From the NCBI GenBank assembly GCA_946478775.1, contig CAMLDR010000219.1:1-6400 (forward strand): a stretch of 6,400 nt of DNA, written 5' to 3'. A program made the position numbers and the translations under genes. The stretch is from an uncultured Flavobacteriales bacterium. Lineage in GTDB: Bacteria > Bacteroidota > Bacteroidia > Flavobacteriales > Crocinitomicaceae. Below are positions 536 through 6,400 of this stretch, piece after piece. The first letter of the stretch is position 1; each line of letters opens with the position of its first letter. The notes under the pieces were generated by a model. It ran no database searches and was not told the origin of the DNA. It saw only the letters and a list, made by a program, of their open reading frames with translations.

Positions 536-3500
536 ATGGAATACAATTTTAATGAAATCGAGCGCAAATGGCGCAAACACTGGGCAGATCATAAAACATT
601 TGCCGCTGAGGACAACTCCGCAAAACCCAAATACTACGTGTTGGATATGTTCCCGTATCCTTCCGGAGCAGGTTTGCATGTGGGTCATCCGCTCGGTTAC
701 ATTGCTTCTGATATTTATGCGCGTTACAAACGCTTGAGAGGTTACAACGTCCTGCATCCGATGGGATACGATTCATTCGGACTGCCGGCGGAACAGTATG
801 CGATCCAAACAGGTCAGCATCCTGCCATTACAACCGAACAAAACATTGCACGTTACCGCGATCAATTGGATAAAATCGGCTTCTCATTCGACTGGGACAG
901 GGAAGTACGAACTTCCTCCCCGGAATATTACAAATGGACGCAGTGGATCTTCAAACAGATCTTCAACTCGTGGTACAATACAAAAACAGATAAAGCTGAA
1001 TCAATTGATTCGTTGATCGCCGAATTTGAACGAAACGGAAACAAAGACGTGAACGCTGTTAGCGAATTTGCGAACACATTTACAGCTGAAGAATGGAAGA
1101 AATCTTCCGAGAAAGAGCAGTCCGATATTTTGATGGAATACCGCCTGGCTTACCTGGCTGATTCGTGGGTGAACTGGTGCCCGGCTTTGGGAACGGTACT
1201 TGCCAACGACGAGGTCATCAACGGGCTTTCTGAGCGCGGCGGTCACCCGGTAGAGCAAAAACTCATGCGCCAGTGGTCGATGCGAATCAAAGCATATGCT
1301 GAACGTTTAATCACCGGTTTGGACACCGTTGACTGGACAGACGCGATCAAAGACATGCAGCGCAACTGGATCGGAAAATCGGTTGGGGCTTCGGTAAAAT
1401 TTAAAATTGATGAAACGGGGCTTCGACTCCGCTCAGCCACCGATTCATCTAGTGAGAACGGGTGGTCACCGAGCGTAGTCGAGGTGTTCACCACCCGCCC
1501 GGATACGATTTTCGGAGTATCCTTCATGGTTTTGGCACCGGAACATCCGTTGGTGGACGAAATCACAACAGCTGAATACAAAGACGCTATAGAAGCTTAC
1601 AAAACGGCCGCTTCATTGAAGTCGGAGCGCGACCGCCAGGCAGATGTGAAAAACATTACCGGTCAGTTTACCGGAGCTTATGCTATTCATCCGTTCTCGG
1701 GAGAGAAAATCCCGGTTTGGATCGGGGATTACGTCTTGGCTTCCTACGGAACAGGCGCCGTTATGGCGGTTCCTTGCGGCGATCAGCGCGACTGGGATTT
1801 TGCGAAACATTTCGACATTCCGATTAAGAACATTTTTGAGAATGTAGACATTTCCGAAGCGGCTTACTCCGAAAAAGAAGGTACGATTACCGATTCCGGT
1901 TTTTTGACCGGACTTTCGGTGAAAGAAGCCATGAAAGCTGCAATTGCAAAAATTGAAGAGCAAGGACTTGGTAAAGGAAAAACAAATTACCGTCTGCGCG
2001 ATGCGATTTTCTCCCGTCAGCGTTACTGGGGCGAACCTTTCCCGGTTTATTATAAAAATGACATTCCGTATTTGGTTGACGATGCACATTTGCCGATCGA
2101 ACTGCCGGAAGTAGATAAATATTTGCCGACAGAAGACGGTGAACCGCCATTGGCGCGCGCAGAGAAAAGTGCGTGGAAATACTCCGAAGGCGACCGCATG
2201 GAAACCAACACCATGCCGGGCTGGGCCGGAAGTTCATTTTACTTCCTGCGCTACATGGACCCGCACAACGAAAAAGAGTTCGTTTCAAAAGAAAAAGCGG
2301 ATTACTGGAACCAGGTGGATTTATACATCGGTGGTTCGGAGCACGCAACGGGTCACTTGTTGTATTCCCGTTTCTGGTGTAAATTCCTGTACGACATGGG
2401 CTTCATTTCCTTTGATGAGCCGTTTAAGAAGATGATCAACCAAGGGATGATTTTGGGTAGAAGTAGTTTTGTTTACCCAACCATGATTGGTTCAACTGGG
2501 CATCTTTCTGCAGGTGGGATTGATAATGTTGGTTTAGACAAGGTGTGTCTTTCCAAAAGTTACATTGATTCAATACTAAAAGTTTATTCCGATAATCCCA
2601 AATTGAGTAAAGAAGCAAGAATTTCCTTCACAAGAAATAGTGTTTCTATGGGTCAGATCAAATTAGAAGATCCGAATTTACATCAATTAAGAGATCGGTT
2701 ATTTAACTTAACACATAAAGACACCAATGAATTGGTTATCGGACATGACTCTTTTCGAGCAATTCATGTAGATATTTCTTTAGTTGACAATGATAAATTG
2801 GATATTGAAGCATTCAAGGTTTGGAGACCAGAATTTGCTGACGCAAAATTCATTGTGGAAAATGATGAAACTTACATCTGTGGTTCCGAAGTCGAGAAAA
2901 TGTCCAAATCGAAATTCAACGTGCAAACGCCGGATGAACTGGTAGAGAAATTTGGTGCCGACACCCTGCGTATGTACGAAATGTTCTTAGGTCCTTTGGA
3001 GCAAACCAAGCCGTGGGACACGAAAGGAATTTCGGGAGTACATAACTTCCTGCGCAAACTGTGGCGCTTGTTCTACTTGCCTGCCGGAGCCGGAGAGGCA
3101 GGCGAGGATGGAAAAGTGATTGTAACAGATTCTCCGGCAGACAAAGCTTCTTTAAAGACTTTGCATAAAACGATCAAGAAAGTAGAAGACGATTTGGAGC
3201 GTTATGCGTTCAATACGAATGTGTCGAACTTAATGATTTGCGTGAACGAACTGACGGAACAAAAATGCCACTCGAAAGAAGTGCTGGAAAAACTGGTGAT
3301 TCTATTGGCTCCATACGCTCCGCATACGGCAGAAGAATTGTGGTCGGAAGCATTGGGAAATCCTCCAGGAACGGTTTCAACCGCTCAATTCCCGGCATTT
3401 GATCCGGCCATGCTGGTAGAGGCAAATACGGTTTATCCCGTATCTTTCAATGGAAAAATGCGATTCAACGCGGAATTCCCGACTGCTTTCTCTGCCAAGG

Positions 3501-3610
3501 AAGTAGAAGAAGCGGTGTTGGCGATGCCGGAAGCACAGAAATGGCTGGAAGGAAAAGCTCCGAAAAAGGTAATCGTGGTTCCGGGGAAGATTGTGAATAT
3601 GGTGGTTTAA
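536..3610 (+). CDS. leuS: Leucyl-tRNA synthetase (LeuRS), enlarged form
   Basis: Cytoplasmic class I synthetase that charges tRNA-Leu with leucine using ATP (EC 6.1.1.4) and edits mischarged products. Visible landmarks: MFPYPSG at 38-44; the HIGH-type motif HVGH at 48-51; VNWCPALGT before the CP1 domain; editing motif TTRPDT at 319-324; editing residues D416, R418 and D419 in GDQRD, which I equate with E. coli D342, R344 and D345; [23 protein letters not shown]; and KMSKS at 788-792, followed by the anticodon-binding and C-terminal regions. MEYNFNEIE is the usual N-terminus in the phylum, which supports the ATG at 536. At 1024 residues it exceeds the roughly 940 that I recall for Bacteroidota. 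The surplus lies at about residues 296-315 (palindromic element), 648-742 (expanded leucine-specific domain, foreign codon use) and 848-857 (short hairpin insert). The frame is intact throughout, so it is probably functional and essential. Confidence 0.98.
1421..1484. repeat. Imperfect palindromic repeat inserted in leuS
   Basis: The left arm at 1421-1441 begins CTTCGACTCCGCTCAG and ends CCACC. The right arm at 1461-1484 begins GGTGG and ends GAGCGTAGTCGAGG. The arms pair over most of their length, with three extra bases and a few mismatches in the right arm, around a loop of about 19 nt. The CTTCGACTCCGCTCAG core resembles dispersed palindromic repeats that I recall from intergenic regions of Bacteroidota genomes; this is memory, not a search. 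Within leuS it encodes about residues 296-315 (from [11 protein letters not shown] to PSVV). These interrupt an otherwise family-like path from VKFKIDE to [10 protein letters not shown]. The insertion keeps the frame and adds no stop codon. Confidence 0.72.
2456..2890 (+). other. AT-rich mosaic segment in leuS
   Basis: This part of leuS has composition and codon use unlike the rest of the gene. By hand count, 2521-2820 has 94 G+C in 300 bases (31%), while 2221-2400 has 86 in 180 (48%). Arginine is AGA in 5 of 7 codons here and in 1 of 35 elsewhere in leuS. Leucine is TTA in 7 of 13 codons here and rare outside. The segment covers residues about 641-785, the leucine-specific domain just before KMSKS. 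There are 95 residues between FVY (645-647) and IHVD (743-746), where I recall about 21 in relatives. Its second part ([21 protein letters not shown]) is family-like, so this is a replaced piece of leuS rather than an unrelated insertion. The edges are approximate. Confidence 0.75.
3076..3106. repeat. Short GC-rich hairpin insert in leuS
   Basis: CTTGCCTGCC (3076-3085) pairs with GGCAGGCGAG (3097-3106) as a 10-bp stem with one G-T pair, around an 11-base loop. It encodes [11 protein letters not shown] (residues 848-858), a Gly/Ala/Glu-rich stretch between the conserved LWRLFY helix and the segment leading to [22 protein letters not shown]. Related enzymes, as I recall them, have only a few residues here, so this looks like a second small palindromic insertion at a tolerant loop. 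It could also be ordinary loop variation. Confidence 0.5.
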
Positions 3611-4197: not shown

Positions 4198-4229
4198 TGT
4201 ATCCTCCCTGGCAAAAAAGGGAGGATACA
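4198..4229. terminator. Bidirectional hairpin terminator
   Basis: TGTATCCTCCCT (4198-4209) and AGGGAGGATACA (4218-4229) form a perfect 12-bp stem with an 8-base loop. It starts 9 bp after the stop of the 3662 gene and lies 11 bp beyond the stop of the convergent gene at 4241, so one structure can serve both strands. Neither side has a long T tract (GATCATTTGAGTT follows on the plus strand), so termination may depend on the stem more than in a classic intrinsic terminator. Confidence 0.8.
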
Positions 4230-4240
4230 GATCATTTGAG

Positions 4241-5710
4241 TTAATATACCTTTAATATTTTCATGGTATGCCCTTCGGCGGTGTGAATAAAATAAACTCC
4301 CGCTTCGAAGTCAGAAATATCAATCGTTAATTGTTTATCGACACTGGCTTTCAGCATTTGTTTTCCATTCACGTTACAAATTGCAAGCTTTGTTGGCTGA
4401 ACAACAGAAATGGTTAGTGAATTCACCGCCGGATTTGGGTAAACAGCCAGGTGCTGATCACTGTTTTCCGAGATCCCGGTTGTACCAGCTACCAAATTGT
4501 ATTTCGCTAGAATTATTTGGGTTATATTTTCACTGATTTGGGTCTTTCCTGCAGCATACAGATGTTGACTGCCATCAGTTGTAACAGATAAGAATTCACC
4601 GGTATCATCTATCCCGTTTGGCATGGTTTCTCTTACAAAAGTTGGGTCAACAACTCCTAAAGTGTCGAACAGGAATACATCGTAAAGGTTCAGTTTTGTG
4701 CCCACTGCAGCTATCTTATTTGTATGGAGCATTTTAATATCGTGAATAAAAGAACCTGTGCTTCCAAGCGAATAACCTGTACTGTTGAAATCGGTGTTCA
4801 AAGCCCCCAAATGATCCAATGAACAAAGCATTGATTTCGAATTTGCTACTCCGCCTAAAAAAATGTTCCCATTTGGCAAAACTTGCATAGCAAACACTCT
4901 ATTATCTCCCAGCTCATCCACACTAAACATCTTTTTGCCATTGGTACCAAAACTACTCACCAGCGATTGACCGTTCGCACTGATCTGTGCAATAGCAATA
5001 TCTGCAATCAGATCTACACCGATTGTATATCCTGCCACGTAAAATGAATTATCTGCATTTATATGCAATGCGGTTCCAACACTAGTTGTTCCGAAACTAA
5101 CACCCACGTACCCCGGAACACTGGTACCAAAAGTAGGATCGTCCGCACCCGTGATGGTCATTTTTGCAATGATAAAATCACTTCCGGTACTGTTGTTCAA
5201 AACTCCCAAACACAGCATCCCACCATCCGGAAGGGCAACAATGTCATTGAATTCATGAGGCATGGAAAATCCTGTTAAGCGAATGCCATCAGTGTTAAAA
5301 CTCACGTCCATCGTACCATTTGAATTTAAACGTACCACCTGAGCCACATTGTCTCGTCGTCCGGCAATTAGAATTTTATTGTCCACAGTCAAGGTTGCGC
5401 AGTTTGCGGTTTGGAAAGTCCCGGGTAATGAAGCAATGGTGGCAACTCCATTGGTGCCGAAACCAGTGTCCGGTGTACCGTCAGTATTATAGCGATAAAC
5501 GTGGATATCACCGCTTTGTCCTGAAGTATAAGAATCACCGACAACAACCGTTTTTCCGTCGCCTTGAAGCAATACTTCAGCACCTCTACTGATATTTTTG
5601 GTCCCAAATTGAAAGGTCAATCCATCCGAACTAAATGAGGTGTTGAGTGATCCGATTTGAGCAAACGCAGCACTTGACAGGAAGATTGAAGCAAATAATA
5701 GTGTTTTCAT
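4241..5710 (-). CDS. Secreted delta-60 repeat protein with type IX sorting domain
   Basis: A 489-residue secreted protein. Residues 1-17 (MKTLLFASIFLSSAAFA) are a Sec signal peptide, with cleavage before QIGS. Seven delta-60-type repeats follow, recognised by G-x-x-D-x-x-F-x-x-x-G cores at about 20-30 (SLNTSFSSDG), 78-88 (GTPDTGFGTNG), 132-142 (GTMDVSFNTDG), 188-200, 247-258, 302-312 and 352-366. Strands such as GDGKTVVVGD and NNKILIAGR-like segments lie between them. The 50-59 residue spacing and the count of seven fit a single beta-propeller, which is inference. Residues about 421-489 (LAVYPNP ... GVYFIHTAEGHTMKILKVY) are a type A sorting domain of the type IX system: it directs export across the outer membrane and is normally removed and replaced by a surface anchor. 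No catalytic motif is visible, so ligand binding or a structural role is likeliest. It lies 39 bp downstream of a paralogue and is probably co-transcribed with it. Confidence 0.93.
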   Translation of the reverse strand: MKTLLFASIFLSSAAFAQIGSLNTSFSSDGLTFQFGTKNISRGAEVLLQGDGKTVVVGDSYTSGQSGDIHVYRYNTDGTPDTGFGTNGVATIASLPGTFQTANCATLTVDNKILIAGRRDNVAQVVRLNSNGTMDVSFNTDGIRLTGFSMPHEFNDIVALPDGGMLCLGVLNNSTGSDFIIAKMTITGADDPTFGTSVPGYVGVSFGTTSVGTALHINADNSFYVAGYTIGVDLIADIAIAQISANGQSLVSSFGTNGKKMFSVDELGDNRVFAMQVLPNGNIFLGGVANSKSMLCSLDHLGALNTDFNSTGYSLGSTGSFIHDIKMLHTNKIAAVGTKLNLYDVFLFDTLGVVDPTFVRETMPNGIDDTGEFLSVTTDGSQHLYAAGKTQISENITQIILAKYNLVAGTTGISENSDQHLAVYPNPAVNSLTISVVQPTKLAICNVNGKQMLKASVDKQLTIDISDFEAGVYFIHTAEGHTMKILKVY

Positions 5711-5749: not shown

Positions 5750-6400
5750 TTATTCTTTTACGACTTTCATGGTTTGCCCTTCGGCTGTATGAATGAAATA
5801 GATGCCCGAAGCAAATCCGGAAAGATCAATTGCTTTTTGATTCTCAACTGTTGTTGTCAGGATTTCTGTTCCGTTGATTGTGCGCACTGAAATGCCGGTT
5901 GGTTTTGAAACTGAAATTGATATTGTTCCATTCGTTGGATTGGGGTAAACGGCTAGTTGATTTGCGTTGGGTTCCTCCATACTGTTTGTACTTTCCGACA
6001 TGAGCATTCTCCCAACAACAATACCTGTGTTGAAATTATCTATGTAAAAACTTTTTACGTAAATCATTTTTCCATCAGGTTGAAAAGCAAAATCCTGAAC
6101 TTGAGCATTCGGAAAATTGGATTCTGTAATCATTCCATCCGTGTCGATTTGTGTATTGAAAGCTCCGGCTGAAGTTAAAAATACAAAGAGCGAGTATTGA
6201 ATACTTGAAAGTGAAATATGTCCACCGGCGATAATTTCGTCGTTTGCGGTAACTCTTAATTTATTGATTCCGGAGTAATCTGATGGAATCGAATGTGTTC
6301 CAAATGTAGCATCATAAACCCCATCTGCGTTTAATTTTACAAAACCACCACGCGTAATGTCCCAAGGTTGTGAACCGGTCCAATAACCCATTCCGCCAAC
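5750..6400 (-). CDS. Delta-60 repeat protein with type IX sorting domain, 5' end missing
   Basis: The frame is open through the right edge. The codons before the first visible Met read V-G-G, giving VGGMGYWTG, a typical mid-repeat strand, so that Met is internal and the start lies outside the window. Counting from that Met, delta-60 cores are seen at 24-34 (GVYDATFGTHS) and 76-86 (GAFNTQIDTDG), with the strand partners NDEIIAGGH and QPDGKMIYVKSF. Residues 146-213 (LAVYPNPTNG ... GIYFIHTAEGQTMKVVKE) are a type A type IX sorting domain. Aligned without gaps, 34 of 67 residues of this domain match the neighbouring gene at 4241-5710, so the two are tandem paralogues. The product is expected to be exported by the Sec and type IX systems and attached to the cell surface or released. 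Its ligand is unknown. Confidence 0.92.
   Translation of the reverse strand, partial: VGGMGYWTGSQPWDITRGGFVKLNADGVYDATFGTHSIPSDYSGINKLRVTANDEIIAGGHISLSSIQYSLFVFLTSAGAFNTQIDTDGMITESNFPNAQVQDFAFQPDGKMIYVKSFYIDNFNTGIVVGRMLMSESTNSMEEPNANQLAVYPNPTNGTISISVSKPTGISVRTINGTEILTTTVENQKAIDLSGFASGIYFIHTAEGQTMKVVKE

Follow-up and report, generated by a model that had tools for sequence, protein, structure and literature searches.

The leuS gene and its palindrome

The window (the whole stretch of 6,400 nucleotides analysed here, from a Bacteroidota contig) contains leuS, which encodes a leucyl-tRNA synthetase (LeuRS) of 1024 aa (positions 536..3610, plus strand; TIGR00396, 924 bits against a cut-off of 548). 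The Pfam editing domain PF13603 spans residues 276-473 of this protein. The gene is nearest to those of Fluviicola and its kin, and Fluviicola LeuRS sequences are the best named homologues.

Within the editing-domain region of the gene is an imperfect palindrome of 64 nt, read in frame, which resembles a dimer of REP-like units (1421..1484, plus strand). The predicted fold of positions 1415-1490 has an energy of -36.3 kcal/mol, compared with a mean of -23.4 (sd 3) for shuffled versions (z = -4.30), and none of the 200 shuffles equalled it. Alignment of TCGACTCCGCTCAG---CCACC to the complement of the right half leaves 2 mismatches and one gap of 3 nt; the palindrome is imperfect, and no perfect stem in it exceeds 6 bp. 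The left arm (CTTCGACTCCGCTCAGCCACC, 1421..1441, plus strand) is read as LRLRS-AT and is identical over its 21 nt to the left arm of a dimer in a related genome, G089. The right arm (GGTGGTCACCGAGCGTAGTCGAGG, 1461..1484, plus strand) pairs with it in the fold, and its last 10 nt or so overlie codons of a conserved V-E-V strand, as read from the sequence. The fold and the arm alignment thus confirm the original prediction of an imperfect inverted repeat at this site. MITEs are recognized by terminal inverted repeats and a target-site duplication; inverted arms are present in the window element. An Rfam search of the window returned no match above threshold. Action as a regulatory RNA hairpin would be another, speculative role for the palindrome.

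The element is 64 nt long, compared with a net gain of 51 nt. Counted from NWIG to PDT, the segment has 48 aa, versus 31 aa in the commonest loop of relatives, which is a net gain of 17 residues. An in-frame peptide of some 20 residues had been predicted just before TTRPDT, the threonine-rich editing motif; the frame and the position hold, and the length is reduced to a net 17. Despite the element, leuS stays open over its 1024 codons, and the leuS matches listed are free of internal stops.

Position of the insert in the editing domain

A full-length AlphaFold model of the window LeuRS (pLDDT 52.5) was discarded as too poor, so a model of the editing domain was used instead. This model was built on 81 sequences, has a mean pLDDT of 87.4 and matches solved LeuRS structures (best E 1.1e-29). 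In the model, the hairpin strand before the loop comprises residues 279-291 (1370..1408, plus strand; E78-90) and the strand after it comprises residues 314-319 (1475..1492, plus strand; E113-118). Between these confident strands are residues 292-313, including the 17 extra residues (1409..1474, plus strand), for which model confidence is low (mean of 68 for residues 292-301 and 50 for residues 302-311). The TTRPDT motif, located by translation and by alignment to Thermus thermophilus LeuRS, occupies residues 319-324 (1490..1507, plus strand). Where the window LeuRS has its insert, the T. thermophilus sequence is gapped in the alignment. As modelled, the insert is a floppy loop joining the two confident strands, consistent with the surface loop in CP1 that had been suggested for it.

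REP-A in related genomes

The repeat family of the window element, which we refer to as REP-A, is widely dispersed in relatives. Across 200 family genomes, its core (TTCGACTNCGCTCAG) was counted 653 times, in 68 of them, compared with 2 copies of a reversed-pattern control. Genome G089, the LeuRS of which is 92% identical to that of the window over residues 1-651, has 75 copies. A dispersed dimer of 72 nt from this genome (locus L298) can be aligned with the window element over its whole length and is identical to it over the first 21 nt. Often, two REP-A copies lie on opposite strands at a distance of 40-130 nt. When 30 copies were sampled across six genomes, 28 proved not to be deep within a long ORF. 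The remaining two are in the LeuRS gene of G097 (L305) and in a gene for a MurE-like ligase (L315). This mostly non-genic distribution in relatives agrees with the original prediction that the arms belong to a dispersed intergenic repeat.

In leuS, REP-A is read as LRLRS (the window), FDSAQ (L118) or STPLS (L102, L147, L151 and L156). Because all three frames are used, the DNA, rather than the peptide, is what is shared, which argues that it is also the DNA that spreads. All 5 genomes with REP-A in leuS have copies elsewhere (median 12), versus 46 of 104 (median 0; p 8.5e-4), in a comparison that ignores kinship and in which 4 of the 5 carriers form one clade.

The genome of another relative contains a tandem array of TTCGACTACGCTCAG (G087:C1:1113149-1113573), with 11 copies at a period of 41 bases.

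Contents of the LeuRS loop across the family

From the 200 family genomes we obtained 110 leuS regions, taken from the highest score downwards, and the site was read in all of them except L157, giving 109. The loop is short and uniform in 65 of the 109, with fewer than 3 extra residues, and contains 3-27 extra residues in the other 44. Thus, as had been anticipated, close relatives lack an alignable peptide at this position. Classified by DNA core, the filled loops include REP-A (8), CCCTTTGGAGGG (8), both of these (1), CCCTTCAAAGGG (2), a TTCGAG type (5), CCCTTCGGAGGG, the PSEG type (1), and AT-rich sequence (8). Another 11 have no core, and 5 of these are eroded look-alikes of PLW inserts, leaving 6 unclassified. 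REP-A, CCCTTTGGAGGG and CCCTTCAAAGGG are the kinds for which dispersal was shown; for the TTCGAG, AT-rich and CCCTTCGGAGGG kinds it was not. Of the 44 filled loops, at least 19 therefore bear the core of one of the three families shown to be dispersed.

The PLWRG family (CCCCTTTGGAGGGGGA) has 347 copies in 75 of the 200 family genomes (control, 0). We identified CCCCTTYRAAGGGG at 31 sites in 7 of 18 genomes, with 3 sites for its control. Genomes with PLWRG in leuS have copies elsewhere in 7 of 8 cases (median 5), compared with 41 of 101 (median 0; p 5e-4, likewise ignoring kinship).

At least 3 extra residues are present in 114 of the best 120 protein homologues, a set of sequences closely related among themselves. 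Farther afield, 73 sites could be read in 80 additional Bacteroidota loci, and 11 have at least 3 extra residues. An alignable peptide of the same length, shared among many genera, was not found; the inserts are unlike that of the window except in P0047, where the insert starts with 11 residues resembling those of the window insert. The family present in leuS of L004 and L009 (CTGAAACANGTTCAGCATGAC) has 17 and 24 copies in the respective genomes (control, 0). For the repeat-like leuS insert of L039, no other exact copy was detected in its genome. A separate route to a long loop is seen in a Bacteroidales LeuRS (L016:5526-5765), where a tandem array coding for ANSANSATSANS..TNPTNP contributes 49 extra residues.

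Perfect stems of at least 8 bp occur in 17 of the 44 filled loops, none of the 65 short loops and 4 of 396 control segments of leuS. This enrichment bears on the simplest alternative, that these are ordinary coding loops of variable length with a palindromic look that arose by chance. Surface loops often vary, and 6 of the 44 filled loops carry neither a known core nor a PLW remnant. Also compatible with chance is a search of 2.2 Mb of pooled relatives for shared 16-mers, in which filled loops were not enriched (7 of 44, versus 4 of 65 short loops and 55 of 439 controls). A 14-mer version of this test gave 35 of 44, 35 of 65 and 337 of 439, respectively. The pooled test has little power, as the pool covers about 1% of most genomes. 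Given the stems, the genome-wide dispersal with near-zero controls and the reading of one core in three frames, we consider chance variation extremely improbable.

The homologous loop in IleRS and its counterpart in ValRS

Only two of 30 sampled genomic copies of CCCCTTTGGAGGGGGA (L239-L268) are deep in ORFs. Both are in isoleucyl-tRNA synthetase (IleRS), in the hairpin that is homologous to that of LeuRS and precedes the TTTPWT motif. We read this hairpin in 51 of 51 ileS loci, where it spans 37-69 aa from a D..D anchor to TTTPWT. An exact CCCCTTTGGAGGGGGA core is present in 5 of the 51 and REP-A in 1. The CCCCTTTGGAGGGGGA copies are read in two frames, giving PLWRG (L243 and L383) and SPFGGG (L316, L321 and L326). 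Palindromes of a third kind, GTAGG, were identified in ileS of L331, L379 and L392; this family occurs in 11 of 15 genomes, with up to 90 sites in each. Perfect stems of at least 8 bp are found in 18 of 51 IleRS hairpins, compared with 10 of 259 controls. In variability and in its wealth of palindromes, this hairpin equals that of LeuRS. The corresponding ValRS hairpin, read in 28 of 30 loci, is of one length in 27 and a residue shorter in one.

In three genomes, the sole exact CCCCTTTGGAGGGGGA copy lies in ileS (L316 in G079, L243 in G111 and L321 in G174). Such a copy may be either the last survivor of its family in that genome or an imported allele.

Five motifs were searched for in 2,203,325 bases of relatives. 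Of the matches, 20 fell in the leuS loop and 23 lay outside long ORFs; no other ORF of at least 200 aa had one deep inside. The sample was centred on leuS, so the leuS count is by design and the zero elsewhere is the informative part. The original prediction was of an element that can spread into genes without breaking them. In-frame insertion is supported; general spread into genes is not, as the copies observed deep in ORFs are almost confined to the LeuRS and IleRS hairpin, which is used by several unrelated repeat families.

The hairpin varies in both of the paralogous LeuRS and IleRS editing domains and not in ValRS. This could indicate an adaptive hypervariable loop, in which repeats are kept since surface variation helps, for instance in evasion of a toxin or inhibitor that binds the editing domain or in tuning of editing. 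Fast turnover among close relatives (see below) would also fit. However, 65 of 109 leuS genes have no insert, and one repeat in different frames yields unrelated peptides, a pattern that mere tolerance explains equally well. We regard an adaptive loop as very unlikely.

Turnover on the LeuRS tree

A quick tree was made from 110 LeuRS rows with the loop excluded (31 of its 107 inner branches are weak). On this tree, parsimony, which does not separate gain from loss or exchange, requires a minimum of 33 changes of state at the site, and a minimum of 17 between filled and empty. Four sequences on terminal branches of 0.01-0.02 illustrate the pace of change: L096 has a TTCGAG loop, L099 PLWRG, L129 TTCGAG and L136 a short loop.

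The junction is F-PLW in every one of the 14 PLW-type leuS inserts. Because of this shared junction, some of the 12 PLW changes on the tree may represent exchange of leuS alleles, rather than fresh insertion. Extended to most of the turnover, this explanation would have a few old insertions passed between species by homologous recombination over conserved flanks. The common frame of the 14 PLW inserts is in keeping with it, as are the different loops between near-identical LeuRS flanks in the four sequences just mentioned and the sole CCCCTTTGGAGGGGGA copies in ileS of G079, G111 and G174. Yet REP-A occurs in three frames with differing junctions, IleRS holds the PLWRG family in two frames, and the unrelated families of L004 and L009, from other Bacteroidota, are dispersed in their own genomes. 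Allele exchange as the source of most turnover is thus unlikely.

The single PLW junction could also reflect choice of target, if the copy process favours leuS DNA, for example through microhomology of the repeat end TCGAAG with the host codons ATCGAAGT. Host codons beside the loop are often ATCGAAGT or ATTGAAGT, and the end of the window element overlaps them. However, this overlap was spotted by eye, the PLWRG and GTAGG families have no TCGAAG end, and the flanking codons differ in IleRS. Targeting of this kind seems distinctly unlikely.

Proposed origin of the inserts

We conclude, with a probability of roughly 0.8, that in this family of Bacteroidota a surface hairpin of LeuRS and IleRS is permissive to REP-like repeats, which settle there, are read through, and are later eroded, removed or replaced. 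The window element would be a head-to-head dimer of a REP-like dispersed palindrome, lying in frame in the loop of the CP1 beta-hairpin before TTRPDT. It would be transcribed and translated within leuS, adding about 20 residues as a flexible loop on the surface, so that the LeuRS protein probably carries the peptide. Dispersed palindromes of several unrelated families may reach the loop by whatever process copies them elsewhere. Those inserted in a stop-free frame would survive, and most insertions in genes would be lost. The LeuRS loop and the homologous IleRS loop are presumed to tolerate such arrivals, and settled palindromes would in time be eroded, removed or replaced. We infer that transposition, or some other copy process, brought the DNA here and that the insert is neutral or nearly so.

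A Y1 transposase is one candidate for the copying machinery. Pfam PF01797 was identified in 119 of the 200 genomes, and its co-occurrence with REP-A has an odds ratio of 2.06 (p 0.023, uncorrected for kinship). Nine of the 39 genomes with at least 5 REP-A copies have no PF01797.

A bolder possibility is that many unrelated palindromes across the Bacteroidota use the hairpin preceding the threonine motif of the LeuRS and IleRS editing (CP1) domain as a landing pad, by way of target preference or of a benefit from variation of that surface. We consider this doubtful. If it were true, parasitic DNA would be steadily rewriting a proofreading loop in the very enzymes of the genetic code.

Settlement of repeats in a permissive hairpin would show that short palindromic repeats of several families can find safe harbour repeatedly in one protein loop, in all frames and in each of two essential enzymes. 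The filled loops, together with the matching genes that lack an insert, would form a natural set of random peptide insertions into a proofreading domain, from which tolerance of new segments could be read; ValRS provides a built-in contrast. Gene finders and aligners encounter such loops as unexplained gaps.

Comparison with known palindromic repeats

Short palindromic repeats are usually treated as extragenic. REP-A resembles REP/BIME elements in consisting of palindromic units of 20-40 bp that form head-to-head dimers and have many copies, mainly intergenic in relatives. REP/BIME elements mobilized by RAYT have a linked Y1/HuH transposase of that type; a narrow motif scan of the examined loci detected no Y1 transposase beside REP-A, and the co-occurrence noted above is a weak link.

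As described in the parts of PMC10969869 drawn on here, Rickettsia palindromic elements (RPE) comprise ten families, with 44 copies in R. conorii, of which nearly half are in ORFs; elements of the RPE-1 type are about 150 bp long and encode a conserved peptide. The case in leuS is similar in that palindromes lie in frame in protein genes and are translated (here, probably), with the host gene kept open. It differs from RPE, so far as they are covered in that source, in that the repeats are about 30-70 bp long and belong to unrelated families, one of which is read in three frames. Moreover, insertions recur in a single loop that two homologous enzymes share, in free-living Bacteroidota.

Among REPs, GTAG- and CGTC-tagged elements and their dimers occur in frame in genes of several species, according to the portions of PMC3733652 used here. 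These include intragenic REPs in tRNA synthetases of X. oryzae, E. lithoralis and S. alaskensis, and recB REPs at about the same site in two Xanthomonas (PMC3733652). Those portions name neither the LeuRS/IleRS editing hairpin nor reuse of one site by multiple families. By eye, REP-A starts with CTTCGACT and lacks the GTAG or CGTC tetranucleotide that marks one end of the tagged superfamilies; the ileS palindromes (GTAGG..CCTAC) do start with GTAG. A literature search, mostly outside subscription journals, returned no account of repeats in the LeuRS/IleRS editing hairpin or of in-frame REPs in Bacteroidota. In-frame REPs are thus already known elsewhere; what seems to be new is that a homologous loop has been filled repeatedly in two synthetases.

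Other features of the window

Farther along leuS, before KMSKS, is an AT-rich block (2458-2875) with a GC content of 0.337, compared with 0.479 for the remainder of the gene. The length of this stretch is highly variable among the 120 homologues, and the block looks to be of separate origin. Two convergent genes are separated by a perfect 12-bp inverted repeat (4198-4229), possibly a shared transcription terminator. Neighbouring genes on the minus strand (4241-5710 and 5750-6400) encode delta-60-repeat proteins with T9SS type A sorting domains. Also on the minus strand, at about 123-332, is a small ORF with the start MTLRISSVLLTAGFLLGAAGSVNAAEQ and a basic, lysine-rich tail; judged from its sequence, the product looks like a short exported protein.
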